NCBI RefSeq assembly: GCF_014646815.1
Contig: NZ_BMNZ01000004.1
Location: 271,103-335,102, forward strand
DNA from: Terrabacter tumescens
Lineage (GTDB): Bacteria; Actinomycetota; Actinomycetes; Actinomycetales; Dermatophilaceae
Direction of reading: 5' to 3'
Length of the DNA stretch: 64,000 nt
Shown here: positions 1,839-63,283 of the stretch, piece after piece
Layout of the letters: every line of letters starts with the position of its first letter
How positions within the stretch are numbered: the first letter of the stretch is position 1
Position numbers and translations under genes: made by a program
The notes under the pieces: model-generated
Told to the model about the DNA's origin: nothing
Database searches by the model: none
The model's input: only the letters and a program-made list of their open reading frames with translations

Positions 1839-4337
1839 ATGCGCAGTCTCACCCTGGCCGAAGCCCGCGAGCGATCCTCGCTGATCACCGTCACGTCGTA
1901 TGCCGTCGAGCTCGACCTCGACCAGGGTGCGGAGGTCTTCGGCTCGCGGACGGTCGTCCGCTTCACGTGCGCCCGGCCGGGTGCCGAGACGTGGGTGGAC
2001 CTCAAGGCTCGCTCCGTCGAGACGGTCTCGCTCAACGGCGCGCCTCTCGACCCCGACGCGGTCACCGACGGCCGCCTGACCCTGCCGGACCTCGCAGCCG
2101 ACAACGAGCTCGTCGTCGCGGCGACGATGGCCTACAGCCACGACGGTCAGGGCCTGCACCGGGCCACCGACCCCGCCGACGACCTCGACTACGTCTACGG
2201 CCACCTCTTCCTCGACGCGGCCCCCAGCGTCTACACCTGCTTCGACCAGCCCGACCTCAAGGCGCCCTACGACGTCACCGTCCACGCGCCGCTCGACTGG
2301 ACGGTCATCGGCAACGGCGCCGCCTCGCAGGTCGGTGCCGGCACGTGGACCCTCGCGACGACCAAGCCGCTCGCGACGTACTTCATGACGGTGTGCGCGG
2401 GACCCTACGTCTCCGTGCGCGACGAGCACGACGGCATACCTCTGGGGGTGCACGCCCGGGCGTCGCTGCGCGAGCCGCTCGAGCGCCACGCGGCAGAGCT
2501 CTTCGACGTGACCAAGCGGTCGTTCGACTACTTCCACGGGCTCTTCGGCATCCGCTACCCGTTCGGGGAGTACCACCAGGTCTTCGTCCCGGAGTTCAAC
2601 GCCGGCGCGATGGAGAACCCCGGCTGCGTCACCTTCCGCGACCAGTACCTCTACCGCGGCGCGGCGACCCGCGACGAGCTGCTGACGCGGGCCAACACGG
2701 TCAGCCACGAGATGTCGCACATGTGGTTCGGCGACATCGTCACGATGAAGTGGTGGGACGACCTCTGGCTCAACGAGAGCTTCGCCGAGTACATGAGCCA
2801 CCGCTGCCTCGTCGACGCCACCGAGTACACCGACGCGTGGGTCGACTCCTCGATCGTTCGCAAGGTGTGGGGCTACGGCGCCGAGCGATCCCCGTCGACC
2901 CACCCCGTCGCCGGGGTCGAGGCCCTCGACGCGCAGTCCGCGCTGCAGAACTTCGACGGCATCTCGTATGCCAAGGGCGCGGCCACGCTGCGCCAGCTCA
3001 TCGCGTACGTCGGTGACGACCGGTTCATCGCCGGGGTCCGCGCGTACCTGACCGACAAGTCCTACGGCAACGGCACGCTCGCCGACTTCCTCGGCGCCAT
3101 CGAGACGGCCAGCGGCAAGGACCTCGAGGCATGGTCGCGCGCGTGGCTGCTCACGGCCGACCGCGACACGCTCTCGGTCGAGCTCGAGGAGCAGGGCGGC
3201 GTCGTCGAGTCCGCCGTCGTGCGCCGCGAGTCGCCCGCCGACCGCCCGGCCGACCGGCCCCACGCGTTCGACGTCGCCGGCTGGACCGACGGGCGCGAGC
3301 TCGGCCGGGTCGCGGTGACGATCACCGGGCCGGAGACGACCCTCGCCGAGCTCGAGCGCACGCCGGAGCCGGCCGTGCTCGTCCCGAACGCCTCGGACCT
3401 GACGTGGGCGCGGGTGCGGCTGTCGGACTCGACGGTCGCCGCGCTGCCGTCGCAGCTCGGCCAGATCCCCGACGAGCAGGCCCGGGCCGTCGTGTGGTCC
3501 TCGCTCATCGACGGCGTGCACGGCGCGACGGTCTCGCCGGAGGCGTTCCTCGACGTCTTCGACGCAGCCTGGCCGCACGAGACGAACTCCTCGATCCTGA
3601 CGCGGGTCGCGGCCTACGCGGAGCACCGCGTCGTGCCGTGGTTCGTCCCGCGCGACCAGCAGGACGCTGCGGTGGCCCGCCTCAACCGGGCCGGCGTCGG
3701 GCTGCTCGAGCGGGCGGCCGCCGGCACGACCGAGTCGCTGGCGGCGGCCCGTCTCGTGGCGGGCACGAGCGACGACGAGACGCTGCTGCGCTCGTGGGCC
3801 GACGGCCAGGGCCTGCCGGCAGGTCTCGAGGACGACGGTGACTTCCGGTGGATCGTCGTGCGCAACCTCGCTGCGCGGGGGCTCATCGGCGCCACCGAGG
3901 TCGACGCGTTCCGCGCCAAGGACGACACCCTGCAGGGTGGCCTCAACGCGCTCATGTGCCGCGCGAGCCTGCCCGACGCCGACGCCAAGGCGTGGGCGTG
4001 GGAGCAGCTGACGGGCCGCAACGGCCGCTCCAACTACGAGATGGTCCACCTCGCCCGCGGCTTCTGGGTCGCCCCTGACGACGCCCTCGTCGAGGACTAC
4101 GTCGCGCGCTACTTCACCGACGTCCCGGCGATGTCGGCGTGGGTGGGTGAGGACGCCCTCTCGCGCGTCGTCCTCGTCGCGTTCCCGCGGGTCTTCACCG
4201 ACGAGACGGCACGCCTCAGCGCCGAGACGATCGCGCGTGACGACCTGACGCCGGCGGTCCACCGCTCCCTCGTCGACGCCGACGCCGAGCTGCGCGAGGC
4301 CCTGGCGTCCCGCGCGACGTTCGGCGCCGCCGTCTGA
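1839..4337 (+). CDS. pepN: Aminopeptidase N (M1 family)
   Basis: A cytosolic zinc aminopeptidase of 832 residues that removes N-terminal amino acids from peptides. The substrate-anchoring GAMEN motif is at about 256-260. The zinc site HEMSHMWFGD begins at H290, with the third ligand in NESFAEY about 19 residues later. The C-terminal half matches the helical ERAP1-like domain of actinobacterial PepN. The length is normal and no domain is missing. A nucleotidyltransferase gene begins 5 bp after the stop, so the two are probably co-transcribed. Confidence 0.96.
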   Translation: MRSLTLAEARERSSLITVTSYAVELDLDQGAEVFGSRTVVRFTCARPGAETWVDLKARSVETVSLNGAPLDPDAVTDGRLTLPDLAADNELVVAATMAYSHDGQGLHRATDPADDLDYVYGHLFLDAAPSVYTCFDQPDLKAPYDVTVHAPLDWTVIGNGAASQVGAGTWTLATTKPLATYFMTVCAGPYVSVRDEHDGIPLGVHARASLREPLERHAAELFDVTKRSFDYFHGLFGIRYPFGEYHQVFVPEFNAGAMENPGCVTFRDQYLYRGAATRDELLTRANTVSHEMSHMWFGDIVTMKWWDDLWLNESFAEYMSHRCLVDATEYTDAWVDSSIVRKVWGYGAERSPSTHPVAGVEALDAQSALQNFDGISYAKGAATLRQLIAYVGDDRFIAGVRAYLTDKSYGNGTLADFLGAIETASGKDLEAWSRAWLLTADRDTLSVELEEQGGVVESAVVRRESPADRPADRPHAFDVAGWTDGRELGRVAVTITGPETTLAELERTPEPAVLVPNASDLTWARVRLSDSTVAALPSQLGQIPDEQARAVVWSSLIDGVHGATVSPEAFLDVFDAAWPHETNSSILTRVAAYAEHRVVPWFVPRDQQDAAVARLNRAGVGLLERAAAGTTESLAAARLVAGTSDDETLLRSWADGQGLPAGLEDDGDFRWIVVRNLAARGLIGATEVDAFRAKDDTLQGGLNALMCRASLPDADAKAWAWEQLTGRNGRSNYEMVHLARGFWVAPDDALVEDYVARYFTDVPAMSAWVGEDALSRVVLVAFPRVFTDETARLSAETIARDDLTPAVHRSLVDADAELREALASRATFGAAV

Positions 4338-4342
4338 CGGCG

Positions 4343-5188
4343 GTGGGGGCCCCGAGCCCCGACGAGCTCCCCGGCGTCGTCCGTGCCACGTGCGACCTGC
4401 ACCTGGCGCTCCTCGACGAGCAGGCACCGGGGCTCGTCGAGGGGCTCCACCTGCACGGTTCCCTCGGTTTCGGCGGGGAGTTCCACGGCGGCAGCGACAT
4501 CGACTTCGTCGCGGTGACGACGAGGCGGGCGACCGACGCCGACGCCGAGGTGCTGCGCCGCGTGCACTCCGAGATCGACCGGCGCCGGCCCGAGCCGGCC
4601 TACGACGGCTTCTACGTCGTGGCGGCCGACCTCGCCGGATCGCCCGACGTCGTGCCGGACGTCCCCGGGGTGCTGCACCAGTGGTTCGACGTCGGCACCC
4701 ACTGCGACGTCAAGCACATCACGTGGCGCGAGCTGCGCGACCACGGAGTCACCGTGTGGGGCAAGCACCTTCGCGAACTGGCCATCTGGAGCGACGACGC
4801 CGCCCTCCACGCCTCGACCCTCGAGAACCTCGACACGTTCTGGCGCTCGCAGCTCGAGGCGATGGAGCACCACCCGCGCGAGGCGTCCCTGCCGCAGGCG
4901 GCGGAGTGGGGTGCGCTCGGGGCCCCGCGGCTCGTGCACCTGCTCGTCACCGGTCGTCCGACGTCCAAGTCGGGGGCGGGCCGGTGGGCGCTGGAGGCCT
5001 ACCCGCAGCACCGCGAGATCGTCGAGGAGGGCCTGCGTGTGCGCGAGCGCCCCGGCGACCCGTCGACGTATGCCGCCGACCCCGGCCGTCGTCGTCGCGA
5101 CCTCGTCGCCCTGATGGCCGAGGTCATCGCCGACGGCGTCGCCGTCACCTCGCCGCCGTCGACCGAGGCCCAGGGACCTGCGACGTGA
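4343..5188 (+). CDS. Nucleotidyltransferase (AadA/DUF4111-like)
   Basis: A 281-residue protein with the pol-beta nucleotidyltransferase signature HGSLGFGGEFHGGSDIDFV near residues 35-53: the GS pair and the two metal-binding Asp residues of SDID. The C-terminal half resembles the DUF4111 helical domain found in aminoglycoside adenylyltransferases. It could adenylylate a small molecule or antibiotic, but the substrate cannot be read from the sequence. Translation starts at GTG 4343, 5 bp after the pepN stop, and the stop overlaps the GTG of the next gene by 4 nt, so the genes are translationally coupled. A resistance role is possible but unproven. Confidence 0.85.
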   Translation: MGAPSPDELPGVVRATCDLHLALLDEQAPGLVEGLHLHGSLGFGGEFHGGSDIDFVAVTTRRATDADAEVLRRVHSEIDRRRPEPAYDGFYVVAADLAGSPDVVPDVPGVLHQWFDVGTHCDVKHITWRELRDHGVTVWGKHLRELAIWSDDAALHASTLENLDTFWRSQLEAMEHHPREASLPQAAEWGALGAPRLVHLLVTGRPTSKSGAGRWALEAYPQHREIVEEGLRVRERPGDPSTYAADPGRRRRDLVALMAEVIADGVAVTSPPSTEAQGPAT

Positions 5189-7883: not shown

Positions 7884-7960
7884 CGTATGCCGTCCGGCCG
7901 GCTCCCGTCCGAGCCACCGGGAGCGTGGTGGCGGGGACGGAGCGGGGCGGACGGCATACG
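7884..7960. repeat. 13-bp inverted repeat made of two GTATGCCG octamers
   Basis: CGTATGCCGTCCG (7884-7896) is repeated in inverted orientation at 7948-7960, 51 bp away. Each arm contains one copy of the window's over-represented octamer. The element fills most of the intergenic space between the SDR gene start and the HtrA gene end. It may form a long-loop hairpin or simply be two octamer copies. Confidence 0.6.
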
Positions 7961-8050: not shown

Positions 8051-9328
8051 TCAGCTGGTCGGCTTGACGGCGAGCGTGACCTCGACGTCCTGACGCGAAC
8101 CGCCACGGATGATCGTCAGCTTGGTCTTGTCGCCGGCGGTCATCTCGCGGATCTGGGCGACGAGGGCCGTGGCGGAGTCGACCCGCTGGCCGTCGACGGC
8201 GATGACGACGTCGCCGTTCTTGAGGCCGGCGTTCGCGGCGGGCGTCCCGCTGCTCACGGAGACCACCTGGGCGCCGGCGCGCTTGGCGCTGCCGTCGGTG
8301 ACCACCGCGTCGCGGGTGCTGACGCCGAGGAAGGCGTGCTCGGCCTTGCCGCTCTTGATCAGCTGGTCGGCGATGGACTTGGCCTCCTTGACGGGGATGG
8401 CGAAGCCGATGCCGATGTTGCCGCTCTGGCTGCCCTGGCTCTGGCCGAGCGAGGCGATCGAGCTGTTGATGCCGATGAGCTCGCCCTTGCCGTTGACGAG
8501 GGCGCCACCGGAGTTGCCGGGGTTGATCGCGGCCGACGTCTGGATGGCGTTCGTCACGACCTCGTCACCGGAGGACTGCTGCTGCCCGAAGGGGGACTCG
8601 CTCGACGTGCCGGTGCTGACGGGGCGGTTGAGGGCCGAGATGATGCCGGTCGTCACGGTGCCCGACAGTCCGAGCGGGTTGCCGACGGCCATGGCCGGGT
8701 CGCCGACCTTGAGGGCCTCGGAGTCGCCGAGGCTGATCGGCGTGAGGTCGGACGGGCCGTTGGTCAGCTTGATGACGGCGAGGTCGGTCGAGGCGTCGGT
8801 GCCGACGATGGTCGCGCCGTAGGTGCGGCCGTCGCTGAGGGTCACGGTGATCGCGCCGTTGCCCGTGGCGTCGCCCACCACGTGGTTGTTGGTGAGGATG
8901 TGGCCGCTCTTGTCGAAGACGACGCCCGAGCCGGCCCCCGAGCCCTGCTGGGTCGTGACGTCGATGCTGACGACGCTGGGCGCGACCGCGGCTGCGACGG
9001 CGGTCCAGTCGGGCGCGGAGGCGTTGCCCTGCACGACCGTGGGCGAGCTGTTCTGGTTGGGGTTCGTCGTCGCCGTCGCGGTGGGCGTCGAGGAGGTGGT
9101 GCCGGTGTCACCGAGCTGGGTGACGGCATACGTCCCCCCGCTCGCGAGGACGGCGGCCAGCAGCGCGGTGACGGCGGTCTGCCCGACGCGGCGGTCGCGC
9201 TTCGGGGCGGGGCGGCTGCCCTCGCCCAGCGGCGGCGTCGGCGGGGCCGGGGGTGCGGGCGGTGCCGACTGGCTGTAGTAGTCGCCCTGCGGGATCTGCT
9301 GGGTGTGGTCCTCAGGTGCCAAGGTCAT
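8051..9328 (-). CDS. HtrA/DegP-like serine protease with PDZ domain
   Basis: A 425-residue membrane-anchored trypsin-like protease. A Pro-rich cytoplasmic N-terminus of about 45 residues precedes a single membrane helix at about 48-70. A Ser/Thr/Asn linker leads to the protease domain with the triad H149 (NNHVV), D182 (STDLAV) and S273 (GNSGG), followed by one PDZ domain at about 320-415. The start is ATG 9328, which has a strong GGAGGAG site; the frame extends 22 codons further upstream without signal. It lies 68 bp after the histidine kinase gene on the same strand. The order regulator-kinase-HtrA parallels mprA-mprB-pepD of mycobacteria, where the protease handles envelope stress. Confidence 0.95.
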   Translation of the reverse strand: MTLAPEDHTQQIPQGDYYSQSAPPAPPAPPTPPLGEGSRPAPKRDRRVGQTAVTALLAAVLASGGTYAVTQLGDTGTTSSTPTATATTNPNQNSSPTVVQGNASAPDWTAVAAAVAPSVVSIDVTTQQGSGAGSGVVFDKSGHILTNNHVVGDATGNGAITVTLSDGRTYGATIVGTDASTDLAVIKLTNGPSDLTPISLGDSEALKVGDPAMAVGNPLGLSGTVTTGIISALNRPVSTGTSSESPFGQQQSSGDEVVTNAIQTSAAINPGNSGGALVNGKGELIGINSSIASLGQSQGSQSGNIGIGFAIPVKEAKSIADQLIKSGKAEHAFLGVSTRDAVVTDGSAKRAGAQVVSVSSGTPAANAGLKNGDVVIAVDGQRVDSATALVAQIREMTAGDKTKLTIIRGGSRQDVEVTLAVKPTS

Positions 9329-9396: not shown

Positions 9397-10920
9397 CTAG
9401 GAATCGGCTGTGCCTTGCGCTGCGCCGTGCAGCGGGCGCTCGTCCTCGAGCCGGGGCTCGGGGGCGGGGAGCTCGACGACGAACGTCGCGCCGCCACCGG
9501 GGGTCTCGCGGACGCTGACGCGTCCGTCGTGCGCCTCGATGATCGCGTGCACGATGGCGAGGCCGAGGCCGTTGCCGCCGCCCTTGCCGCGGCTGCGGGA
9601 GCGGTCGGCGCGGTAGAAGCGCTCGAAGACGTCCGCGCGCTCACCGGGAGGTATGCCGTGTCCGTGGTCGCGCACGTGGAGCGCGACGTGCCCGGTGTCG
9701 ACCCGACCGACGAGGATCTCGATCGGCGTACCGGCGGGAGTGTGGACCCGGGCGTTGGTGACGAGGTTGGTGACGACCTGGCGCAGCTGCCGCTCGTCGG
9801 CCTGCAGCTCGGTCGGCTCGATGGGGCCGTCGATGCCGGTGGCGACGATGTGCCGGTCGGGCGCGATGGTGCGCGCGTCCTGGGCCGCGTCGGCGGCCAG
9901 CACGGCGAGGTCGACGGGCTGCAGCTCGAGCGGGCGCTCGCCGTCGAGGCGGGCGAGGGTGAGCAGGTCCTCGACGAGCCCGCTCATCCGGTGCGCCTCG
10001 GACTCGATGCGGCCCATGGCCCCGGTCACGGCGTCGGCCGACGGGAGGGCGCCCTGCCGGTAGAGCTCGGCGTAGCCGCCGACGGCGGCCAGCGGGGTGC
10101 GCAGCTCGTGCGAGGCGTCGGCGATGAAGCGGCGCATCCGGGCCTCGTTGGCCTCCCGGACGGCGAAGCTCTGCTCGATGCGGGCGAGCATGGCGTTGAG
10201 CGACCGGGACAGCGAGGCGACCTCGTCGTCGGTGTCGGGCACGTCGACGCGCTGGGTCAGGTCGCCCACCGCGATCTGGGCCGCGGTGTCCTCGATCCGG
10301 GTCAGGGGCCGGAAGGTGCGGCGCACGAGGTACCAGCCGAGCACCGCCGTGATGATGAGGGTGATGGCCCCGATGCCGGCGGCGTAGAGCAGGAACTGGT
10401 TGACCGTCCGGTCGAGGGGCGTGAGCGGCAGGGCCAGGACGTAGATCTCGTTGCGCGTCTCGTTGAGCTGGGCGAGGGCGAGCCACTGGGCGTCGCCCTC
10501 GACGGACCCGATCTGGAAGGTGGTCCGCTTGGTCACCCTGGGGTCGTTGACCGTGAGGGTGGGCAGCTTGGCCGCGTTGGTCTCGGTGACGGCCTCGCCG
10601 AGGGAGTCGGCCTTGCCGGTGCGCACGTCGATGACGCGGGTCGTGAAGCCGGTGGGCAGCTGGGGGCCGGCCTCGGCGAGCTCGGCCGGGTCGATGGACG
10701 CCAGGCTCGCGGCGTAGACCTTGAGCTCCTGCTCCGTCTGGTTGACGAGGTAGACGCGCAGCAGGGCGCCGACGACGAGCGAGGTGACGGCGAGCGCCAC
10801 GGCGATGAGCCCGAGGGTGACGGCGAGCAGTCGCCAGCGCAGCGGCATGGTGCGCAGGCGGGACAGCGGACGCTCCCGGCGGCCCGGTGGGGCGGCGGGC
10901 TCGGCGGTCACGTCGACCAC
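9397..10920 (-). CDS. Sensor histidine kinase (envelope-stress type)
   Basis: A 507-residue two-pass membrane kinase. Membrane helices at about 30-53 and 160-182 flank an extracytoplasmic sensor of about 105 residues. A HAMP domain (about 183-235), a dimerisation domain with the phospho-acceptor H271 in ASHELRTPLA, and a HATPase domain with N, G1 (DHGHG) and G2 (GNGLGLA) boxes follow. GTG 10920 begins 4 bp after the response regulator stop, so the pair is one transcript. It phosphorylates the neighbouring regulator. Resemblance to MprB/TrcS is in layout; the specific stimulus is unknown. Confidence 0.95.
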   Translation of the reverse strand: MVDVTAEPAAPPGRRERPLSRLRTMPLRWRLLAVTLGLIAVALAVTSLVVGALLRVYLVNQTEQELKVYAASLASIDPAELAEAGPQLPTGFTTRVIDVRTGKADSLGEAVTETNAAKLPTLTVNDPRVTKRTTFQIGSVEGDAQWLALAQLNETRNEIYVLALPLTPLDRTVNQFLLYAAGIGAITLIITAVLGWYLVRRTFRPLTRIEDTAAQIAVGDLTQRVDVPDTDDEVASLSRSLNAMLARIEQSFAVREANEARMRRFIADASHELRTPLAAVGGYAELYRQGALPSADAVTGAMGRIESEAHRMSGLVEDLLTLARLDGERPLELQPVDLAVLAADAAQDARTIAPDRHIVATGIDGPIEPTELQADERQLRQVVTNLVTNARVHTPAGTPIEILVGRVDTGHVALHVRDHGHGIPPGERADVFERFYRADRSRSRGKGGGNGLGLAIVHAIIEAHDGRVSVRETPGGGATFVVELPAPEPRLEDERPLHGAAQGTADS

Positions 10921-15296: not shown

Positions 15297-15671
15297 TCAG
15301 GCCGGAGGCTGGTCCTTGGTGAGGTGGAGCAGCCAGTCGCGGTCGGTGCGGATCAGCGCGTAGCGCCGCGGCTCACTCCGGCCGTGGAGCACGAAGACGA
15401 TGCGGTGGTCGTCACGCGACTCCTCCTCCCACCAGCCGGTGTTGGCGACCGACTTGTGCTCGTCGGTGTAGCCGAGATGGTCCATCGCGTGGTCGTCGAC
15501 CGCGACCGCGAGCCGGTCGTGACGGCTCGACGTCGGCAGCCCCTTGGGCACCGCCCACGAGCGCAGCACGCCGTCCTCCTCGAGCCGGAGGTCGAAGTGC
15601 GGCCGCGGTTTCCGGTGGTCGTGGAGCACGTATGCCGGCCGATGGCCTTGGCGGGATCCCTTGCCTGCCAA
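15297..15671 (-). CDS. Stand-alone LigD 3'-phosphoesterase-like protein
   Basis: A 124-residue protein resembling the phosphoesterase (PE) domain of DNA ligase D, which trims 3' phosphates and ribonucleotides during end joining. The PHFDLRLEEDGVLRSWAVPKG segment (about 24-44) carries His and Asp metal ligands, and VDDHAMDH supplies another His. The middle differs from classical PE domains: the EG-rich loop is replaced by a GWWEEESRDDHRIVFVLHG segment. Translation begins at TTG 15671, 6 bp after the stop of the upstream WYL gene, so it is coupled to that gene. Solo PE proteins are known; a repair role fits the neighbouring XPB and WYL genes. Confidence 0.8.
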   Translation of the reverse strand: MAGKGSRQGHRPAYVLHDHRKPRPHFDLRLEEDGVLRSWAVPKGLPTSSRHDRLAVAVDDHAMDHLGYTDEHKSVANTGWWEEESRDDHRIVFVLHGRSEPRRYALIRTDRDWLLHLTKDQPPA

Positions 15672-18107: not shown

Positions 18108-18173
18108 CTGCCCGTCGCCGGCCGTTCCGCGTCCGTATGCCGTGGGGTGGCCTCGGGCTCGCGTGCTGCCCGC

Positions 18174-19157: not shown

Positions 19158-19634
19158 TCAGCGGCCGAGCAGCACGTCCGACGTGTGCTCGAGCGCCTGA
19201 CGCGCATAGCCCCGCCACATCCGGCCGACGAGCGGCAGGACGCGGGCGGCATACGCGCTCGTCGGGTGCAGCGTCCAGCTCCACGTGATGAGCACGCCCG
19301 TCCCCACGGGGGCGAAGGCCCAGCGGCCGTCCACGTGCGAGACGAGCGGCTTGAAGGCGCCCGTGAAGTCGGTCAGGACGTAGTCGAAGCGCTCCGGGCG
19401 CACGACCTCGGTCAGCCGCTCGCGCATCGTGCCGCCGTCCGAGGTCACGATCGTCCGGGTCTGCCCGACCGTGCCCCAGGGACCGGACTGGTCGCGCACC
19501 TCGCGGATCGGCGGGAGCAGGCCGTAACGCCGCGACATGAGGTCGGTGAGCGGGTGGGCGATCAGCCGGTCGAAGGCGGCGCCGACCTCGACGGGCACGG
19601 CGCGCGAGGACTCGAGGTGCAGGGACGAGGGCAT
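19158..19634 (-). CDS. SRPBCC-family protein
   Basis: A 158-residue START/polyketide-cyclase-like fold protein. It begins with the typical strand SSRAVPVEVGAAFDRL, and a long C-terminal helix (about 128-150) covers the lipid-binding cavity. Such proteins bind hydrophobic ligands or act as cyclases. ATG 19634 is chosen because the family strand begins soon after and a TACGCT box lies 5 nt upstream; the open frame beyond it is low-complexity. Ligand unknown. Confidence 0.82.
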   Translation of the reverse strand: MPSSLHLESSRAVPVEVGAAFDRLIAHPLTDLMSRRYGLLPPIREVRDQSGPWGTVGQTRTIVTSDGGTMRERLTEVVRPERFDYVLTDFTGAFKPLVSHVDGRWAFAPVGTGVLITWSWTLHPTSAYAARVLPLVGRMWRGYARQALEHTSDVLLGR

Positions 19635-45675: not shown

Positions 45676-45956
45676 CGTCCGGAGCAGCCCAGCCGCCCGC
45701 GCCCCACCATGGTCATGACTCTAGGAGCAGATCCGGCTCCTGACGAGGGGCGCCATGGCGCAGGGAACTGCCACGAGCACTCGGTCCGGAGCCCGAAGCG
45801 CAACCACAGCGCCCTGGTCAGGCGTCGGGACCATGCCACCCGGCATACGCGAAAGTTCGTCTCAGAGCGGTTGAGCGGCGAGCCGATGGGCACGGGGAGG
45901 GACACACCAGGGCGACGACGGGGGTTGTCGCCGTTCCGCAGCCCCAAGGAGATGAC

Positions 45957-50724: not shown

Positions 50725-50868
50725 CCCGTACGTTCTGCACCACGCTCGGCCACACGTGCGCGCGACGACGTGCGCAGCAGTGCCCGTCGTCTGCGTATGC
50801 CGTGTGCCCGCGGAGCGATTCCTCCGCGCGGTGGTCTGTCGCTGGCAGGACTACGGAGGTTCGTTCGT

Positions 50869-50880: not shown

Positions 50881-53800
50881 ATGACCGAAGCCCTCAGGAC
50901 CGACCCTGCCATCCCGGCGGAGTCGCCCTCGGGCGACCCGCGTGCCGACCGCGTCGCGGCCGCCGTCAGGACGTGGCAGCGCACGCTCGTCGACCTCGGT
51001 GGCCGCAACACGCTGCTCTGGTACCGCGACCTCCCCTCGGGCACCCTCGACCTGACGACCGCTCACCCCGGCGGCGTCTCGATGCTGCTCGCGGGCCGCC
51101 GCACCCGCCTGTCCGACCTCGTGCGCGAGCCCGCCGCCTTCGAGGAGGCCCGCCGTCGAGCGCGCGCCATCCGCGCCAAGGCACTCGAGCTGCGCGAGGA
51201 GCGTGGCATCGCGGCCGGGTTCATCGCCATCGGCATGGCCACGTGGTCGGTGCCCCGCGCCGCCCGGCCGCCGGCCTCGCCGGTGCTGCTGCGCTCGTGC
51301 GTGCTGCGACCGACCGGCGCCGCGCAGGAGGACTTCGAGATCGACCTCGGGCCCGAGGCCGAGTTCAACCCCGTGCTGCGCGAGTACCTCCGCTCCGAGC
51401 AGGGCATCGAGATCGACGCCGACGCGCTCGCCGACCTCGCCAGCGCCGGCAACGGCTTCGACCCCTACCCCGTGTATGCCGCCCTCGGCCACGCGTGCCA
51501 GCACGTGCCCGAGTTCGAGATCAGCCCGCGGCTCGTCCTCGGCACCTTCTCCTACGCCAAGCTGCCGATGGTCGCCGACCTCGCGCTGCAGGGCGCGACC
51601 CTCGCCGACCACGACGTCGTCGCGGCGCTCGCCGGTGACGAGTCGGCGCTCGCGGCCGTGCGCCTCCGGGTGCCCGAGAGCGAGGCCGACCCGGACCCCG
51701 AGCACGAGTACCTCGTCCTCGACGCCGACTCCTCCCAGCACGCGGCGATCGATGCCGTACGCGCTGGCGCCCACCTCGTGGTCAAGGGACCTCCCGGCAC
51801 GGGCAAGTCGCAGACCATCGTCAACCTCATCGCCTCGCTCGCCGCCGAGGGCAAGTCCACCCTCTTCGTCGCGGAGAAGCGCGCCGCCATCGACGCCGTC
51901 CTCAGCCGCCTCGACCGCCTCGGCCTCGGTGACCTCGTGCTCGACGCGTACGACGGCCCGACCAACAAGCGGGCGACCGCGCAGCAGTTCGCGCGCAGCC
52001 TCGAGGCCGCCGTCGACAACGATGCCACCGAGAGCGACCGCACCACCGCGACCCTGCGCGAACGTCGTGCCCGGCTGCAGCAGCACGTGCAGGCCCTGCA
52101 CGCGGTGCGCGACCCGTGGGGCGTGTCCGCCCACGACGCCCAGGAGGCGCTCGTCGAGCTGGGCACCCGCACGCCACCGCCGACCTGCCACGTGCGGCTC
52201 GGGAGTCGCGACCTCGCCGGCCTGAGCCGCACCCGCGCCGTCGAGCTCGGGCGTCGCCTGCGCGACGCCGCCGGCCTCGGCGCGTGGACCCGGGACGGTG
52301 ACGACCCGTGGTTCGGCGCCCGCATCCTCAGCTCCGACGACGCGGCCCGCGCCCTCGAGATCACGAGCAAGCACAGCACGAGCGGGCTCGACGACGCCGC
52401 TCGCCAGCTCAACCGCATACTGTCCGAATCCCGTGTGCCAGAGGCAAACTCGCTCGAGGACTGGAAGTCGGCCTTCGCGACGATGTCAAGCGTCCGCGAG
52501 ACGCTCGAGGTGTTCCGGCCCGAGGTGTTCGACATCCCCCTCAAGGAGCACATCGCGGCGACCGCGACGCGCGACTGGCGCGAGGCACGCGACGTCGAGA
52601 TGGGCTGGCTCGACCGCTGGAAGATCCGGCAGCAGACCAAGCGCCTCCTCCGTCCGGGTCGCCCGCCGGCCGACCTCCACGAGGAGCTCGTGTCGGCCAG
52701 CGAGCAGCGCGAGCACTGGTTCGAGCTCGTCGGCGGCGGCGGCCGGCCCGAGATCTCGCCGCGACTCGACGAAGGCCTCGCCCTGCTCGCCGACCTCACC
52801 GCCGACCTCGAGTGGCTCGACGAACGACTCCAGCCCGGGCCCCAGGGCCAGACGTTGACCTCGCTGCCGCTGCTCGAGCTGCGCGAGCGTCTCGCCGCCC
52901 TCGCGAGCCGCCCCGACCGCATCGCGGTGCTGCCCCAGGTCACGGCCGCGCTCGACGAGCTGCGCGCCGTCGGTCTCGGGGGAGTCGTCGACGACCTCGC
53001 CGCCCGGGGGATCCCCACCGAGCAGGTCACGGCCGAGGTCGAGCACGTGTGGTGGGCCTCGCTCGCCCAGGAGATCACCGTCCGCGACCCCGCCTACGGC
53101 GCCCACGACGGGACGGGCCTGCGCCGCGACGTCGCCGAGTTCGCAGAGGCCGACCGCGCCCACCAGTCCGCCACCGTCGCGCGGGTCCGCGCCGCCGTTG
53201 CCCGCAACGTGCGCGAGACCCTCGCCGACCACCCCGCGCACGAGGCGCTCGTGCGGGCCGAGGCCGGCAAGGCCCGGCGCCACCGGCCGCTGCGCGACCT
53301 CATGCCGCAGGCGTCGGCGACGCTGACGGCGATCAAGCCGTGCTGGGCGATGAGCCCGCTCGTCGTCGCCTCGACGCTGCCCCCGGGCCGCTGGTTCGAC
53401 GTCGTCATCTTCGACGAGGCGTCGCAGGTGCAGCCGGCCCAGGCGATCTCGGCGATCTCGCGCGCCCGGCAGGTCGTCGTCGCGGGTGACGAGCGCCAGC
53501 TGCCCCCGACCAACTTCTTCACCGTCGTCTCCGACGACGAGTCCGACGCGGCAGCCCCGGCCGACGAGACCCTGACCGAGGGCTTCGAGTCGGTGCTCGA
53601 CGTGCTGGCCGCGGCGCTCCCGACGCGCAACCTCAACTGGCACTACCGCAGCCGCGACGAGCGACTCATCGCCTTCGCCAACGAGGCGATGTACGACGGG
53701 CGCCTCACGACCTTCCCCGGCACCTCCCTCGACTCGGCCGTCACCTTCGAGCCGGTCGACGGGCAGGCCGTCGTCCAGCCCGGCGTCGACACCATCGAGA

Positions 53801-54996
53801 CGACCGACGGCGAGGTCGCCCGCGTCGTCGAGCTCGTCCTCGAGCACGCGCGCACGCGCCCAGCCGAGTCGCTCGGCGTCATCGCGCTCGGCATCAAGCA
53901 CGCCGACCGCCTCGAGGAGGCGATCACCGAGGCCCTGCGCACCGCGCCCGACGTCGCCGCCTTCTTCGACGACGCCCGCGACGAGCGCTTCTTCGTCAAG
54001 AACCTCGAACGCGTCCAGGGCGACGAGCGCGACGCCATCATCCTGTCGATCGGCTACGGCAAGACGCCGCACGGTCGGGTGCTGCACCGCTTCGGCCCCC
54101 TCAACATCGAGGGCGGCGAGCGCCGCCTCAACGTCGCCATCACCCGCGCCCGGTCCCGGATGGCGGTCGTGTCGGCGCTGCGGGCGATCGACCTCGACCC
54201 CGGTCGCCTCAAGGCACGGGGCGCCCTCATGCTGCGCGACTTCCTCGCCTACGCCGAGGGTGGTGGCGGGGCCGGCGACGAGGACACCCTCTTCGCATCC
54301 GCTCCCGTCACGAGCGACCCGCTGCGCCACGACCTCGCCGAGCGGCTCCGCCGTCACGGGCTCACGGTCCACGAGGACTACGGCACGGCGAGCCACCGCA
54401 TCGACATCGCCGTCGAGGACCCCTATCACCGCGGTCGCGCGCTCATCGCCGTCGAGACCGACGGGGAGCGGTATGCCGCGTTGCGCAGCACGCGCGACCG
54501 TGACCGTCTGCGTCCCGAGCAGCTCGCCCGCCTCGGGTGGGTGCACGAGCGGGTCTGGAGCACCGACGTGTTCCGCGACCCCGCTCGTGAGATCGCGCGC
54601 ATCGTGAACCTGGCCCGATCGTCGCCGCCCCCTCCGGCTGCTGAAGCAGCGGAGGAGACGTCGGGGCCGGTCGAGGAGCCACAGGCCAAGCAGGGTTCAG
54701 ACGCGGACGCGACGTCGGACGGCGCTGGCGATGCTGCTTCGTCGGACGAGGGCTCGACCGCAGCGGCTGCCGTGCCGGCGACGCAGGAGGCTCCCGCCCC
54801 GAAGCGCAAGCGTCGCCGGGTCTTCCGCAAGGGCACCGCGGCCGCCGAGTCGACCTCCGAGACCGACGGCAGCGAGCCGGGCGCCGCGCTCGGGCGCAGC
54901 GGCGACGAGCTCGACCTCGGCTGGGGCGAACGCCCCTCCAGCTCGGGCCTCGGCGACCGGTGGCTGCAGGAGCAGCGACCGCCGCACTACGAGTGA
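50881..54996 (+). CDS. DUF4011-SF1 helicase-Vsr-like nuclease, candidate phage-defence protein
   Basis: A 1371-residue protein. An N-terminal DUF4011 region (about 20-290) precedes a superfamily 1 helicase: Walker A GPPGTGKS at about 303-310, motif II DEASQ at about 845-849, NLNWHYRSRDERLI (motif IV-like), and the motif VI ITRAR near 1087. The segment at about 1145-1245 matches Vsr/MTES-type nucleases (RIDIAVEDP, IAVETDGERY, RDRDRLRPEQLARLGW, WSTDVF), with D and E/D metal ligands. The acidic Ser/Ala tail of 120 residues is probably disordered. The architecture is that of the single-gene DUF4011-helicase-Vsr group reported as antiviral (Hhe); I am fairly, not fully, sure of that match. No neighbours look defence-related. 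Confidence 0.92.
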   Translation: MTEALRTDPAIPAESPSGDPRADRVAAAVRTWQRTLVDLGGRNTLLWYRDLPSGTLDLTTAHPGGVSMLLAGRRTRLSDLVREPAAFEEARRRARAIRAKALELREERGIAAGFIAIGMATWSVPRAARPPASPVLLRSCVLRPTGAAQEDFEIDLGPEAEFNPVLREYLRSEQGIEIDADALADLASAGNGFDPYPVYAALGHACQHVPEFEISPRLVLGTFSYAKLPMVADLALQGATLADHDVVAALAGDESALAAVRLRVPESEADPDPEHEYLVLDADSSQHAAIDAVRAGAHLVVKGPPGTGKSQTIVNLIASLAAEGKSTLFVAEKRAAIDAVLSRLDRLGLGDLVLDAYDGPTNKRATAQQFARSLEAAVDNDATESDRTTATLRERRARLQQHVQALHAVRDPWGVSAHDAQEALVELGTRTPPPTCHVRLGSRDLAGLSRTRAVELGRRLRDAAGLGAWTRDGDDPWFGARILSSDDAARALEITSKHSTSGLDDAARQLNRILSESRVPEANSLEDWKSAFATMSSVRETLEVFRPEVFDIPLKEHIAATATRDWREARDVEMGWLDRWKIRQQTKRLLRPGRPPADLHEELVSASEQREHWFELVGGGGRPEISPRLDEGLALLADLTADLEWLDERLQPGPQGQTLTSLPLLELRERLAALASRPDRIAVLPQVTAALDELRAVGLGGVVDDLAARGIPTEQVTAEVEHVWWASLAQEITVRDPAYGAHDGTGLRRDVAEFAEADRAHQSATVARVRAAVARNVRETLADHPAHEALVRAEAGKARRHRPLRDLMPQASATLTAIKPCWAMSPLVVASTLPPGRWFDVVIFDEASQVQPAQAISAISRARQVVVAGDERQLPPTNFFTVVSDDESDAAAPADETLTEGFESVLDVLAAALPTRNLNWHYRSRDERLIAFANEAMYDGRLTTFPGTSLDSAVTFEPVDGQAVVQPGVDTIETTDGEVARVVELVLEHARTRPAESLGVIALGIKHADRLEEAITEALRTAPDVAAFFDDARDERFFVKNLERVQGDERDAIILSIGYGKTPHGRVLHRFGPLNIEGGERRLNVAITRARSRMAVVSALRAIDLDPGRLKARGALMLRDFLAYAEGGGGAGDEDTLFASAPVTSDPLRHDLAERLRRHGLTVHEDYGTASHRIDIAVEDPYHRGRALIAVETDGERYAALRSTRDRDRLRPEQLARLGWVHERVWSTDVFRDPAREIARIVNLARSSPPPPAAEAAEETSGPVEEPQAKQGSDADATSDGAGDAASSDEGSTAAAAVPATQEAPAPKRKRRRVFRKGTAAAESTSETDGSEPGAALGRSGDELDLGWGERPSSSGLGDRWLQEQRPPHYE

Positions 54997-57830: not shown

Positions 57831-57891
57831 GGGTGGGCTCCCGGCCGGCCGGACGGCATACGTCCTCGGGTGGGGACAACGTCCCCGTGGC

Positions 57892-58317: not shown

Positions 58318-59838
58318 CTACGGCCACCCGGCGAGGCGTCCGCCGCGGCTGATGTCGCGGATGCGCTGCTCGGTGCGCTGCTTGACCTTGGAGGTCGTGA
58401 CGACGAGCAGCTGGTCGCCGTGCCGGATCGTCGTGTGCCGGTCCGGGACGAAGCCCTCGCCGCCGCGCACCACGAGGGTGACGTTGGCGCCCTTGGGCAG
58501 GCGCAGCTCGAAGACGGCGACGCCGTGCAGCCGGGACTGCGGTCCGACCGTCACCTGGATGACGTCGGCGCTGATCTCCATGAGCGAGGTCGACTCGAGG
58601 TCGACGTCGACCGAGTGCACCTGCTCGGTGAGCCCGAGGCGCCGCGCCACCCACGGCAGCGTCGGGCCCTGGACGATGGTGAAGACGACGACGAGCATGA
58701 AGACGAGGTCGAAGATCCACTCGGTGTCCGGCGTGCCGACGACGAGCGGCACGGTTGCGAGCACGACGGGGACGGCGCCGCGCAGCCCCGCCCACGACAG
58801 GAAGAGCTGGTCGCGCCAGGGCACCTTGAACCACGACACGGACGCGACGACCGACAGCGGGCGGGCGACGAGCAGCAGGACGAGGCCGATGACGATGGCG
58901 GGGATGAGCTGCTCGCCGAGGCGCCGCGGGTCGGCGAGCAGGCCGAGCAGCACGAAGAGACCGATCTGCGCGATCCAGCCGAGGGCGTTGGCGAAGCTCT
59001 GGAAGGCGACCCGGTTGGGCAGCCCCATGTTGCCGAGCACGAGGGCCGAGAGGTACGTGGCGAGGAAGCCGGAGACGTGGACGGCGGCGCCCGCGGCATA
59101 CGCGAGCACCGTGAGGGAGACGACGCCGATCGAGAAGAGCGCGGACGACGCGCCCGCGACGCGGTGCAGGATCTGCCCGCCCAGCCAGCCCACCGCGCCA
59201 CCGACGAGCGCGCCGCCGACGAGCTCGACGACCGCGTGCAGGAGCAGCACCCACCACGGGTCGGCCGTCCCGCCCGGCACGCCCTGGGCGGCGAACGCGA
59301 CGACGAGGATGACGACCGGCGCGTCGTTGAAGCCCGACTCGGCCTCGAGCATCCCCGAGAGGCGCTTGGGCAGCGGCACGTTGCGCAGGACGGCGAAGAC
59401 GGCGGCCGCGTCGGTCGAGGTGACGATCGCGCCCATGAGCAGCGAGATCGTCCACGACAGGGGGAGGAGGGTGTGGGCGGCCACGGCGACGACGAGCACC
59501 GACACGACGACGCCGACCGTCGAGAGCACCGCGGCGGGCGCGACCGAGTCCTTGATGTTGGACCACGACGTCGTCAGGCCACCCTCGGCGAGGATGAGCA
59601 CGAGGGCGGCGTAGCCGAGCACCCGCGTGATGGACGCGTCGTCGAACTGGATGCCGGCGCCGGCGTTGCCGAGGGCCAGGCCGATGCCGAGGTAGATGAG
59701 CAGCGACGGCAGGCCCGAGCGGACCGACAGGCGCACGGCGGCGACCGCCACGAGCAGCACGAGCGAGCCGACGAGGAGCACACGCGTCAGGTCGTCGAGG
59801 TCCATGGTCGACGACGTGATGGATGCGAGTGCGGGCAA
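58318..59838 (-). CDS. Cation/proton antiporter with RCK_C domain (NhaP2-like)
   Basis: A 506-residue CPA1-type antiporter exchanging K+ or Na+ for H+. About 12 membrane helices span 10-395, with the transport-core motif AEGGLTTSWSN and the discontinuous helix segment TSTDAAAVFAVLRN. A C-terminal TrkA-C/RCK_C domain (about 425-495) probably gates it by ligand binding. TTG 59838 is favoured as start: GAGGAG lies 6 nt before it; ATG 59805 is an alternative. It is divergent from the penicillin acylase gene. Confidence 0.9.
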   Translation of the reverse strand: MPALASITSSTMDLDDLTRVLLVGSLVLLVAVAAVRLSVRSGLPSLLIYLGIGLALGNAGAGIQFDDASITRVLGYAALVLILAEGGLTTSWSNIKDSVAPAAVLSTVGVVVSVLVVAVAAHTLLPLSWTISLLMGAIVTSTDAAAVFAVLRNVPLPKRLSGMLEAESGFNDAPVVILVVAFAAQGVPGGTADPWWVLLLHAVVELVGGALVGGAVGWLGGQILHRVAGASSALFSIGVVSLTVLAYAAGAAVHVSGFLATYLSALVLGNMGLPNRVAFQSFANALGWIAQIGLFVLLGLLADPRRLGEQLIPAIVIGLVLLLVARPLSVVASVSWFKVPWRDQLFLSWAGLRGAVPVVLATVPLVVGTPDTEWIFDLVFMLVVVFTIVQGPTLPWVARRLGLTEQVHSVDVDLESTSLMEISADVIQVTVGPQSRLHGVAVFELRLPKGANVTLVVRGGEGFVPDRHTTIRHGDQLLVVTTSKVKQRTEQRIRDISRGGRLAGWP

Positions 59839-60009: not shown

Positions 60010-62601
60010 GTGTCACGGTTGAAGCGCGCCCGTCGGATCGTCCTGCTCGTCTCCGTCCTCGTCGTCATGGCGGTGGTCGCGGTGAGCATCCTGGCGATCG
60101 GTGTGGTGCGACAGTCCTTTCCGGACACCACCGGCCAGCTCGAGATCGAGGGCCTCACGAGCTCCGTCTCGGTGCACCGCGACGCCCAGGGCGTCCCGAC
60201 GATCTTCGCCGACAACGCGAACGACCTCTTCCGCGCGCAGGGCTTCGTCAGCGCCCAGGACCGCTTCTTCGAGATGGACCTGCGCCGTCACGTGACGGCC
60301 GGGCGCCTGTCCGAGCTCGTCGGCAGCGCCGGCATCGACAGCGACAAGGTCATCCGCGCGATGGGCTGGCGCCGCGTCGCCGAGCAGGAGCTGCCCAAGC
60401 TCGCGCCCGAGACCCGGCAGTACCTCCAGGCGTACGCCGACGGCGTCAACGCCTACATCAAGAAGACCGAGTCGCCCGAGAAGATGTCGCTCGAGTACAC
60501 CGTGCTCGCGCGCCGCAACCCCGGCTACCGCGTCGAGCCGTGGACGCCCGTCGACTCGCTCGCCTGGCTCAAGGCCATGGCGTGGGACCTGCGCGGCGAC
60601 TACAAGGACGAGCTCGCCCGCGCGCGCCTGTCGCGCACGACCCGCTCGCTCAAGCAGGTCAACCTGCTCTACCCGCCCTACCCCGTCGACCGCAACCAGC
60701 CGATCCTCTCCGAGCAGGACTGGCAGCCGGCGTCGGCCCAGAGCGACCAGGCCGCGAGCCCTGCGCCCGCCGCGCTGAAGGCGCTGCGCACGCCCGACGG
60801 CAGCGACGCGATCGACTCGGCGCTCGCCTCAATCGAGGCGGTCCCGGTCAGCCTCGGGCGCGGCGACGGCATCGGCTCCAACTCGTGGGTCGTCTCCGGC
60901 TCGCGCACCACGACGGGCAAGCCGCTGCTCGCCAACGACCCGCACCTCGCCCTGTCGATCCCCGGCATCTGGGGGCAGGTCAACCTCCAGTGCCGCACCC
61001 TCAGCGCCGCGTGCCCCTTCCAGGTCTCGGGCTTCACCTTCTCGGGCCTGCCCGGCGTCGTCATCGGGCACAACGACAAGGTCGCGTGGGGCATGACCAA
61101 CCTCGGCCCCGACGTCACGGACTTCTACCTCGAGCAGGTCTCGGGCGACACCTACCTCCGCGACGGTGACAACGTGCGCGTCACGAAGCGCCAGGAGGTC
61201 ATCAAGGTCGCCGGAGGCGCCGACGTGCCCCTGACGGTCCGCTCGACGGTGCACGGCCCGATCCTGTCCGACGTGGTCCCGTCGATCGATGCCGCCGGCG
61301 ACCGCAGCGTCGTGCGCGGTGCGCCGCAGTCGAACCGGTATGCCGTGTCGCTCGCGTGGACGGCGCTGACACCGGGCACGACCGCCGACGCGATCTTCGC
61401 CCTCAACCGGGCGACGAACTGGGCCGACTTCCGCAAGGCGGCCGCGCTCTTCTCGGTCCCGTCGCAGAACCTCGTCTACGCCGACACGGCCGGGCACATC
61501 GGCTACCAGGCGCCCGGCAAGATCCCGGTCCGTCGGTCGGCGACACCCGGTGCGGCCCCCGGCTTCTGGCCCTCGCCCGGCTGGGACTCCCAGTGGGACT
61601 GGAAGGGCTACGTCCCCTTCGACGACCTGCCGACCTCGTTCGACCCGGCCGAGGGCTTCGTCGTCACGGCCAACCAGGCCGTCACCGCGAGCCCGACGCC
61701 GTTCCTGACGTCCGAGTGGGACTACGGCTTCCGGGCGCAGCGCATCCGCACGGTCCTCGCCGCGACCCCGAAGGTCTCGCCCGAGACGATGTCGCAGATC
61801 CAGGGCGACACCCGCAACACCTACGCTCCCGAGCTCGTCGAGCGGCTCCTGTCGGTGCAGGTCGACGACTTCACCGCACAGGCCCAGCGGCTGCTGCGCG
61901 ACTGGGACGGCAGCCAGCCCAACGACAAGTCGCGCGACGCGGCCTCGGCGGCGTACTACAACGCCGTCTGGAAGTACCTCCTGCAGTACACCTTCGACGA
62001 GCTCCCGCCCGACATCGCCCCCGACGGCGGCAGCCGCTGGATGGTCGTCATGGAGCAGCTGCTCAAGGACCCGAAGAACGACTGGTGGGACGACAAGACG
62101 ACCCCCGGTGTCACCGAGGGGTCGGGCGAGATCCTCAAGCGGGCTCTCGTCGAGGCCCGTCTCGACCTCGCGCGCGAGCTCGGCAAGGTGCCCGCCACGT
62201 GGCGCTGGGGCCGCCTGCACCAGCTCGACCTCAAGCACCAGGTCATGGGCGCCGACGGAGTGCCGGAGATCGTCCAGAACCTCTTCAACCGCAACGACAT
62301 CGAGCTCGGCGGCGGCAACTCCATCGTCAACGCCAACTCGTGGAACGCCTCGAAGCCGGGCTACGACGTGACCAACGGCCCGTCGATGCGCATGGTCGTC
62401 GACCTCGGAAACCTCGACGCGTCCCGTTGGGTCAACTCGACGGGCCAGTCGGGGCACGCCTACGACGACCACTACGCCGACCAGATCGACGCGTGGGCGG
62501 CCAACGAGACCTTCGCGTGGCCGTTCAGCCAGGCCGCGGTGCGCGACGCGACGGACGACGATCTGACCCTCGTGCCGCCGTCGCAGGCTCCCGCTCCCTG
62601 A
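60010..62601 (+). CDS. Penicillin acylase family protein
   Basis: An 863-residue Ntn-hydrolase precursor. An N-terminal membrane anchor (about 10-33) leads to the alpha chain, a spacer, and the beta chain that starts at the catalytic Ser S290 in GIGSNSWVVSG, where self-cleavage occurs. Further conserved parts are DPHLALSIPGIWGQ, the calcium-binding NDPH, and GHNDKVAWGMTNLGPDV. Family members hydrolyse penicillins, acyl-homoserine lactones or other amides; the substrate is unknown. If it acts on homoserine lactones it would be a quorum-quenching enzyme. Confidence 0.93.
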   Translation: MSRLKRARRIVLLVSVLVVMAVVAVSILAIGVVRQSFPDTTGQLEIEGLTSSVSVHRDAQGVPTIFADNANDLFRAQGFVSAQDRFFEMDLRRHVTAGRLSELVGSAGIDSDKVIRAMGWRRVAEQELPKLAPETRQYLQAYADGVNAYIKKTESPEKMSLEYTVLARRNPGYRVEPWTPVDSLAWLKAMAWDLRGDYKDELARARLSRTTRSLKQVNLLYPPYPVDRNQPILSEQDWQPASAQSDQAASPAPAALKALRTPDGSDAIDSALASIEAVPVSLGRGDGIGSNSWVVSGSRTTTGKPLLANDPHLALSIPGIWGQVNLQCRTLSAACPFQVSGFTFSGLPGVVIGHNDKVAWGMTNLGPDVTDFYLEQVSGDTYLRDGDNVRVTKRQEVIKVAGGADVPLTVRSTVHGPILSDVVPSIDAAGDRSVVRGAPQSNRYAVSLAWTALTPGTTADAIFALNRATNWADFRKAAALFSVPSQNLVYADTAGHIGYQAPGKIPVRRSATPGAAPGFWPSPGWDSQWDWKGYVPFDDLPTSFDPAEGFVVTANQAVTASPTPFLTSEWDYGFRAQRIRTVLAATPKVSPETMSQIQGDTRNTYAPELVERLLSVQVDDFTAQAQRLLRDWDGSQPNDKSRDAASAAYYNAVWKYLLQYTFDELPPDIAPDGGSRWMVVMEQLLKDPKNDWWDDKTTPGVTEGSGEILKRALVEARLDLARELGKVPATWRWGRLHQLDLKHQVMGADGVPEIVQNLFNRNDIELGGGNSIVNANSWNASKPGYDVTNGPSMRMVVDLGNLDASRWVNSTGQSGHAYDDHYADQIDAWAANETFAWPFSQAAVRDATDDDLTLVPPSQAPAP

Positions 62602-62668
62602 CGTCCGCTCCCTGACGCTCGCTGCCTGAGGTCCGCGACGCGAGGGCGTATGCCGTGTGCTGACCTCG

Positions 62669-63283
62669 TCAGCGCAGGCGCACGACGCGGCCGGTGGTCG
62701 TCACGTAGCCGTCGACGGGCACGTCGTGCGCGTCCGCCGGCAGGTCGAGCTCGCTCTGCTCTCCCTCGTGCAGCAGCGTGACGACGGGTGCCGACGGGTC
62801 GCGGTGCAGCAGGGCCCGGTCGTAGCAGCCGCCGCCCTGTCCGAGCCGCGTGCCGTGGCTGTCGACCGACAGGCCGGGCGTCACGACGAGGTCGCACGTG
62901 GCGAGGGCGTCGGTGCCCAGCCAGCGCTGCCGCTCGTCGGCGTCGGGCTCGTGGCCGCCGTGGCCCGGGCGGCGCACGGTGGCATCGTCGCCCGAGGCGC
63001 CGGGGACGGCATACCTCCACTCCAGCGAGAAGTCCTCGAGCACGATCGGCACGATGACCTCGTGCCCGGCGGCAAGGAGCGCCTCGACGAGGCGGCCGGT
63101 CGGCGGCTCGTCCGGGAGCGACTCGTAGACGGCCACCCGGCAGGGCTCGGGCACGAAGCGCAGGACCGCGTCGGCGATCGCGACGGCAGCGGCCTCGCGG
63201 GCCGCGGGGTCCGTCCCGCGCGCGAGCTCACGCCGTCGGGCCCGTGCGGCGTGACGCACGTCACGCTTGGTGCCCGCTGTCAC
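62669..63283 (-). CDS. 5-formyltetrahydrofolate cyclo-ligase
   Basis: A 204-residue ATP-dependent enzyme that converts 5-formyl-THF to 5,10-methenyl-THF. The characteristic GQGGGCYDRALLHRD motif (about 149-163) and the folate-binding VTPGLSVDSHGTRLG precede the VPVDGYVTTTG C-terminus. GTG 63283 starts the family-like N-terminus (KRDVRHAARARRREL). It is divergent from the UDP-sugar pyrophosphorylase gene; this pairing (5-FTHF gene beside galU) also occurs in mycobacteria. Confidence 0.93.
   Translation of the reverse strand: MTAGTKRDVRHAARARRRELARGTDPAAREAAAVAIADAVLRFVPEPCRVAVYESLPDEPPTGRLVEALLAAGHEVIVPIVLEDFSLEWRYAVPGASGDDATVRRPGHGGHEPDADERQRWLGTDALATCDLVVTPGLSVDSHGTRLGQGGGCYDRALLHRDPSAPVVTLLHEGEQSELDLPADAHDVPVDGYVTTTGRVVRLR

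Follow-up and report, generated by a model that had tools for sequence, protein, structure and literature searches.

An abundant, constrained octamer of Terrabacter tumescens as the putative core of a DNA uptake sequence in the Dermatophilaceae

In a stretch of 64,000 nucleotides of Terrabacter tumescens (hereafter the window; located on contig 4 of the 4.71 Mb assembly, which comprises 23 contigs), the octamer GTATGCCG is strongly over-represented, and the same holds for the whole assembly. Based on its placement, its conservation and its variation between related genera, we propose that the Dermatophilaceae/Intrasporangiaceae use GTATGCCG in natural transformation as the core of a DNA uptake (self-recognition) sequence, a reading to which we assign a probability of roughly 0.6. 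A wider claim, which we hold to be only marginally better than an even chance, is that the word belongs to a third uptake-signal system of independent origin, which would be the first in Gram-positives and the first to have a Tad/Flp-type competence pilus as its reader. This system would comprise no fewer than three related dialects (GTATGCCG, GGATGCCG and GTATGCGG), one of them reached twice, genomes standing between dialects and a sub-group that uses the unrelated word CGAAGGGG. The first-pass annotation of the window had listed a recombination hotspot, a segregation or packing motif and a modification site as possible roles of the octamer; a DNA uptake sequence, the option that fits best in our analysis, was not on that list. 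A literature search on the letters of the octamer, uptake sequences in Actinobacteria, motifs of Intrasporangiaceae and transformation of Terrabacter (preprints not covered) revealed no account of GTATGCCG by title among the matches listed.

Abundance, placement and constraint of the octamer

GTATGCCG is present exactly 34 times in the window, 18 times on the forward and 16 times on the reverse strand, with the first copy starting at position 1898 and the last one ending at position 63014. The same count had been made by eye in the first-pass annotation, and its estimate of about 2 copies from base composition was recomputed as 2.1. The excess of about 15-fold claimed there is real and even larger, as a third-order Markov model predicts 1.59 copies; 100 dinucleotide shuffles of the window yielded a mean of 0.77 and a maximum of 4 copies. 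In the whole assembly, we found 2358 copies (1158 forward and 1200 reverse), corresponding to 0.50 per kb compared to 0.53 per kb in the window; the octamer read backwards, used as control, occurred 199 times. Hence, neither does the Markov model predict the count nor does the density drop outside of the window, the two outcomes that the annotation had named as speaking against a signal. A 464 kb sample of this genome held 227 copies where 11.5 were expected, and this expectation, the shuffles and the Markov model together rule out chance or composition as the source of the word.

Genes were called using a home-made codon-usage script. The non-coding fractions obtained in this way are probably too high in several of the fetched genomes (0.20 in G016 and up to 0.53 in G014) and the ratios of non-coding to coding density are therefore lowered. 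In the 464 kb sample, 65 of the 227 copies are non-coding although non-coding DNA accounts for only 9.6% of the sequence (p 6e-16), and the density of GTATGCCG outside genes is 3.7 times that inside. The non-coding copies share an extended consensus of approximately cGA[GT]ggC-GTATGCCG-T[CG][CT]G[CG]CC, with G+11 (83%), C-1 (80%) and T+8 (75%) as the strongest flanking positions. The longer core CGTATGCCGTCCGGCC (motif strand) that the first-pass annotation had seen in intergenic copies was recovered in three of the eleven non-coding window copies (7885, 40325 and 57854). The similarity around the octamer is gone within about 15 bases, on which ground a long mobile repeat was rejected. Non-coding copies reach their highest density between convergent genes (25 in 8.6 kb compared to 17 in 16.4 kb between divergent genes) and do not show any preference for gene starts.

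Next to each other, copies of the word adopt a preferred orientation. Among close pairs, defined as copies 8 to 60 bases apart, the inverted ones were 6 of 6 in 564 kb of the own genome, 7 of 11 in relatives, and 13 of 17 and 8 of 9 in genomes using the words GGATGCCG and CGAAGGGG described below, respectively, many of them with long stems. Pooled over these four sets, 34 of 43 pairs are inverted (p 8.5e-5), compared to 0 of 2, 1 of 1 and 6 of 16 for control words in the own genome. Close pairs of GTATGCCG thus tend to be inverted and to form hairpins. The number of close pairs exceeds the Poisson expectation in the GGATGCCG genomes (17 versus 8.6) and the CGAAGGGG genomes (9 versus 3.0) and is not above it in the relatives (11 versus 13.0).

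Within genes, the octamer is kept at the expense of codon usage. The 162 coding copies of the 464 kb sample read NNG TAT GCC G (Tyr-Ala) in 100 cases, NCG GCA TAC in 35, GGC ATA C in 16 and otherwise in 11, so that GTATGCCG holds 100 of the 178 TAT codons and 16 of the 22 ATA codons in this sample. Where the protein sequence permits the word without change, it is carried by 100 of 196 Tyr-Ala and 35 of 132 Ala-Tyr contexts. The codon pattern reported by the first-pass annotation is also found in the window, where 19 of the 23 coding copies encode Tyr-Ala with TAT, three Gly-Ile with ATA and one Ala-Tyr. Between related species, TAT is retained at 421 of 503 aligned tyrosines inside the word (84%) and at 37 of 205 outside (18%), leaving out four aligned non-tyrosine codons per class. 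Of 942 aligned cases, 661 retain the whole octamer, compared to 37% for other octamers (90 ordered pairs, ten loci), and it is the better kept in 88 of the 90 pairs; these counts are not independent since the pairs share ancestry and recurring sites. Codon bias alone was rejected based on the frame and codon counts, the eligible contexts and the conservation of TAT. GTATGCCG is under constraint and kept by selection, and the count over the assembly, together with the codon and conservation data, bears out the earlier suggestion that codon choice yields to a signal spread over the whole genome.

The copies of GTATGCCG in the window are given below by position, strand and context; coding status and frames rely on the home-made gene calls (ORF, open reading frame).

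1898..1905, forward: coding, Tyr-Ala frame, ORF 1839-4337 (pepN)
2432..2439, reverse: coding, Gly-Ile (ATA) frame, ORF 1839-4337
5068..5075, forward: coding, Tyr-Ala frame, ORF 4343-5188
7885..7892, forward: non-coding, extended core, inverted relative to the copy at 7952
7952..7959, reverse: non-coding, inverted relative to the copy at 7885
9124..9131, reverse: coding, Tyr-Ala frame, HtrA-like ORF
9651..9658, forward: coding, Gly-Ile (ATA) frame
13014..13021, reverse: coding, Tyr-Ala frame
13938..13945, reverse: coding, Tyr-Ala frame
15630..15637, forward: non-coding
17189..17196, reverse: coding, Tyr-Ala frame
18135..18142, forward: non-coding
19247..19254, reverse: coding, Tyr-Ala frame
20524..20531, forward: coding, Tyr-Ala frame
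27999..28006, reverse: coding, Tyr-Ala frame
28596..28603, forward: coding, Gly-Ile (ATA) frame
29041..29048, reverse: non-coding
32874..32881, forward: non-coding
33358..33365, forward: coding, Tyr-Ala frame
35389..35396, reverse: coding, Tyr-Ala frame
36899..36906, forward: coding, Tyr-Ala frame
40226..40233, forward: coding, Tyr-Ala frame
40325..40332, reverse: non-coding, extended core, between convergent ORFs
43111..43118, reverse: coding, Tyr-Ala frame
45841..45848, reverse: non-coding
49133..49140, forward: coding, Ala-Tyr frame, GH92-like ORF
50795..50802, forward: non-coding
51474..51481, forward: coding, Tyr-Ala frame, ORF 50881-54996
54471..54478, forward: coding, Tyr-Ala frame, ORF 50881-54996
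57854..57861, reverse: non-coding, extended core
59094..59101, reverse: coding, Tyr-Ala frame
61338..61345, forward: coding, Tyr-Ala frame
62648..62655, forward: non-coding, between convergent ORFs
63007..63014, reverse: coding, Tyr-Ala frame

For the pepN gene of the window, the best match among the loci returned was that of Terrabacter aerolatus (95%). ORF 50881-54996 (forward strand, 1371 amino acids), which carries two of the copies, matched two families of anti-phage helicases below their cut-offs, with 847 bits for ProA (NF058533, cut-off 1500) and 576 bits for Hhe (NF042953, cut-off 2000).

Distribution and dialects of the word

The nine genomes of the own genus, T. tumescens included, contain 1423 to 2358 copies of GTATGCCG each, and the numbers range from 7 (G037) to 4724 (G007) over a family sample of 149 genomes from 53 genera. 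The distribution is patchy even within single genera: G025 and G096 have 1062 and 3681 copies, but G069 of the same genus has 19, and G035 and G073 of a second genus have 1251 and 1455, but G125 has 37. Outside of the family, the highest counts were 386 in a genome of 7.5 Mb (reversed word: 176) in a phylum sample of 293 genomes and 167 (reversed word: 184) in an order sample of 92 genomes. Among the sampled genomes, GTATGCCG is abundant only in the Dermatophilaceae/Intrasporangiaceae, and patchy there. Named loci rich in the word come from Terrabacter, Humibacillus, Intrasporangium, Pedococcus and Nostocoides jenkinsii; poor ones are three loci of Phycicoccus (0, 1 and 0 copies) and one of Nostocoides sp. 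F2B08 (0 copies).

Scanning the GTATGCCG-poor genera for over-represented words revealed that some of them use one-letter variants, GGATGCCG or GTATGCGG. The former occurs 3816 and 3838 times in G016 and G064 (g17), 3949 times in G026 (g27), and 4480 and 3619 times in G103 and G118 (g45), compared to 241 to 1336 times in the remaining 142 genomes of the family sample. Two further g45 genomes contain both words, with 2195 GGATGCCG and 1217 GTATGCCG in G044 and 2099 GGATGCCG and 1189 GTATGCCG in G079. The density of GGATGCCG in non-coding DNA reaches 2.61 per kb (G026) and 1.10 per kb (G016), compared to 0.05 per kb in the own genome; in GTATGCCG genomes, GGATGCCG is about twofold above expectation, but in coding DNA. 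GTATGCGG is a weaker dialect, with 511 to 1204 copies in four g21 genomes (at most 476 elsewhere), 33 sites in 135 kb, a non-coding ratio of 1.8 and one close pair. G037 and G038 use the unrelated word CGAAGGGG, which is strand-balanced and 4.8 and 5.1 times denser outside genes, respectively; at the loci inspected in these two genomes (L145, L146, L182 and L202), the word, given as CGAAGGGG(G), has the same habits as GTATGCCG, inverted close pairs included.

One intergenic site, located before valS, carries GTATGCCG in the own genome, G113, G039, G096 and G007, and GGATGCCG in G016 and G026. In a ValS tree, the GGATGCCG genomes fall into two separate places. One is formed by G016 plus G026 (93/93), inside a group shared with Terrabacter and Humibacillus (100/100), and the other is the g45 group (100/99); the wordless genomes G069 and G125 lie within GTATGCCG groups (100/99 each).

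Some other words came up in poor genomes. Tentative candidates are CGTACGCC in G024 (L143, L144, L180 and L200; 55 copies, 23 non-coding) and GTACGGCG in G069 (L188, L208, L277, L278, L284 and L291; 74 copies, 16 non-coding), tentative because words resembling them are frequent in Kribbella and Nocardioides. In G041 (L147, L184 and L204), 13 of 15 copies of CGTAGCGA and all ten copies of CCCTCCTA are non-coding, and these two are perhaps promoter or repeat elements. In G010 (L139, L140, L173 and L193), GTTCAACGA was found 15 times with 1.0 expected, together with its overlapping neighbours GTCGTTGAA and CGTTGAACC.

Competence genes, pili and known uptake words

We surveyed genes in 52 chosen genomes, 28 rich and 24 poor in GTATGCCG, the latter including the dialect genomes. 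All 52 have comEC over cut-off and a match to the ComEA domain (over cut-off in 27), which by coordinates lies beside comEC in all but G046 and G049. In T. tumescens, comEA and comEC are in tandem, and a tad cluster encodes TadA over cut-off (TIGR03819, 433 bits), an Ssd-like protein below cut-off and further tad/pilin-like ORFs assigned by position and resemblance; two of these ORFs, scanned singly, had no NCBIfam match. A DECH helicase over cut-off is encoded about 5 kb from this cluster, and a second cluster encodes TadA-like and CpaB-like proteins, both below their cut-offs. In the actinobacterium Micrococcus luteus, transformation depends on two tad loci, and there are orthologues of comEA and comEC (PMC4322843); the phrase 'uptake sequence' is absent from PMC4322843 and PMC8467076.

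In the mechanism that we propose, the competence machinery would have a DNA receptor at the cell surface that prefers DNA with GTATGCCG. This receptor would most likely be a minor pilin of a Tad/Flp-type pilus feeding ComEA and ComEC. DNA fragments that contain the word would be taken up and recombined more often than others, so that the uptake bias would drive its accumulation, and copies would be kept at permissive sites, i.e. between genes, sometimes as hairpin pairs, and within genes where the amino acids allow it. A change in the preference of the receptor would lead to rewriting of the genome to a new dialect.

Taken together, the traits described above agree with the DNA uptake sequences (DUS) of Neisseriaceae better than with any other kind of word considered. 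For DUS, Frye et al. (PMC3630211) report the same set: copies by the thousand (about 1900 per genome of 2.2-2.3 Mb); one-letter dialects, a genome with two dialects and permissive intergenic sites; and inverted hairpin pairs, there at terminators. Unlike DUS, GTATGCCG belongs to another phylum, is a different word and has a strong preference of reading frame, and the own genome lacks PilM and PilT over cut-off. DUS are read by ComP; no ComP was identified here, and no search aimed at it was made. The AT-DUS ATGCCGTCTGAA and the extended word have ATGCCGT, though not the CTG core, in common, which we take to be a coincidence. With the uptake signal sequences (USS) of Pasteurellaceae, GTATGCCG has in common that it is a short, abundant word with a flanking extension and that there are two USS dialects, as stated in part of PMC12616744. 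Phylum and word are again different, the predicted USS receptor is the minor pilin PpdA/ComN, and uptake is proven for USS, whereas we infer it for GTATGCCG. HIP1 of cyanobacteria is a palindrome and likewise a very abundant octamer of unsettled function; GTATGCCG, in contrast, is non-palindromic, i.e. different from its own reverse complement, and has dialects and inverted pairs. GTATGCCG would work in the manner of DUS and USS; we did not assign it to either because the type IVa pilus markers did not reach their cut-offs outside G025. Sequence-selective uptake is described as known only in Neisseriaceae and Pasteurellaceae in a section of PMC12616744, and sequence-specific uptake in Neisseria is called an outlier in a section of PMC12040237.

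Several observations weigh against an uptake sequence. In the known cases, uptake words are read through type IVa pili; of the two markers of such pili, PilM was matched in 25 and PilT in 51 of the 52 genomes, in both cases over cut-off in G025 only and not in the own genome. With one of 25 matching genomes over cut-off, the PilM match was rejected as a type IV pilus marker; we take the own match to be MreB, judging from its sequence and neighbours, and both own PilT matches examined are of the TadA type. Presence of comEC and ComEA does not separate rich from poor genomes and is thus no predictor of the word, as would be expected if only the specificity of the receptor differs, or if the word works elsewhere. 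Of the minor-pilin-like genes at nine tad loci, namely a short pilin (in all nine), a TadE-like gene (in eight, not in G020) and an Rv3654c-like one (in eight, not in G069), none had a clear link to dialect. Close pairs are no more numerous in the own genome than the Poisson estimate (6 versus 7.1), so that their orientation alone stands out. Of the 14 sites in the own valS stretch, an orthologous dialect swap was seen at one of eight aligned sites in G016 and one of four in G026, in both at the same site, with no swap at the other aligned sites of this stretch. Finally, there was no clear word in 40-80 kb samples of several poor genomes, e.g. G002, G009, G014, G019, G045 and G049.

Other explanations and implications

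Alternatively, GTATGCCG could act in the way of Chi: a helicase-nuclease that processes breaks (AdnAB or another) would read it as a mark of self DNA, to be recombined and not degraded. Like Chi, it is an abundant, conserved, non-palindromic octamer, and Chi words vary between taxa according to part of PMC8022716. Unlike Chi, it shows no strand polarity in one contiguous stretch of 160 kb (43 versus 39 copies, while genes run 103 to 43), and the own genome has no RecBCD-type RecB, its best match (E 4e-22) covering model positions 334-459 only. RecB of this type (E below 1e-100) is patchy in the 52 genomes and commoner among the poor ones (14 of 24) than among the rich ones (6 of 28), counts not corrected for kinship, and two rich genomes have weaker matches near 1e-62 and 1e-65. 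RecBCD Chi was rejected on the missing polarity and the missing enzyme, which also disfavours a hotspot of Chi type as a form of the recombination hotspot listed by the first-pass annotation, and we consider Chi-like signals of any kind unlikely. The strand balance over the genome and in the 160 kb likewise led us to reject a strand-biased architecture word.

A binding site for a nucleoid, segregation or regulatory protein all over the chromosome would agree with the enrichment outside genes and with an even spread, the copy number in twenty 20 kb stretches being 4 to 15 with a mean of 9.65 and a variance of 7.5, i.e. below the mean. If such a site were essential, however, it would be hard to understand why thousands of copies have been rewritten in related genera, be it to one-letter variants or to an unrelated word, and why the word is nearly lost inside genera, in G069 and G125. 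There is also no bias towards gene starts, and the density is at its maximum between convergent genes. We therefore regard this explanation as improbable; of the roles listed by the first-pass annotation, segregation or packing alone leaves the changes of the word between genera unexplained, and what stands is the genome-wide signal.

Less probable still is the recognition site of a modification/restriction system or an epigenetic switch. In its favour, the word is kept whole while its one-base neighbours in the 464 kb are mostly at or near expectation, the biggest excess in number being that of GGATGCCG (91 versus 45 expected) and the biggest ratio that of GTATTCCG (6 versus 0.5 expected). 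GTATGCCG is not a palindrome, however, its hairpin pairs would be left unexplained and modification sites are not usually enriched 20-fold. A mutational, repair or codon-pair bias is very improbable: other octamers of the 464 kb sample are two- to four-fold over expectation via coding effects, but GTATGCCG imposes two rare codons, TAT and ATA, on a genome of 72% GC, where they are held between species, and is denser outside genes.

If GTATGCCG is indeed the core of an uptake sequence, actinobacteria would provide a third case, meaning that sequence-selective uptake evolves repeatedly and, here, tied to another type of pilus. The genomes with two words and the loss of the word inside genera would make the question of preference versus drive in the evolution of uptake words testable within one family. 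On the practical side, adding GTATGCCG to donor DNA may ease the transformation of these bacteria. An uptake sequence would also imply that DNA exchange by transformation is frequent enough in these soil bacteria for thousands of genomic sites to be rewritten.

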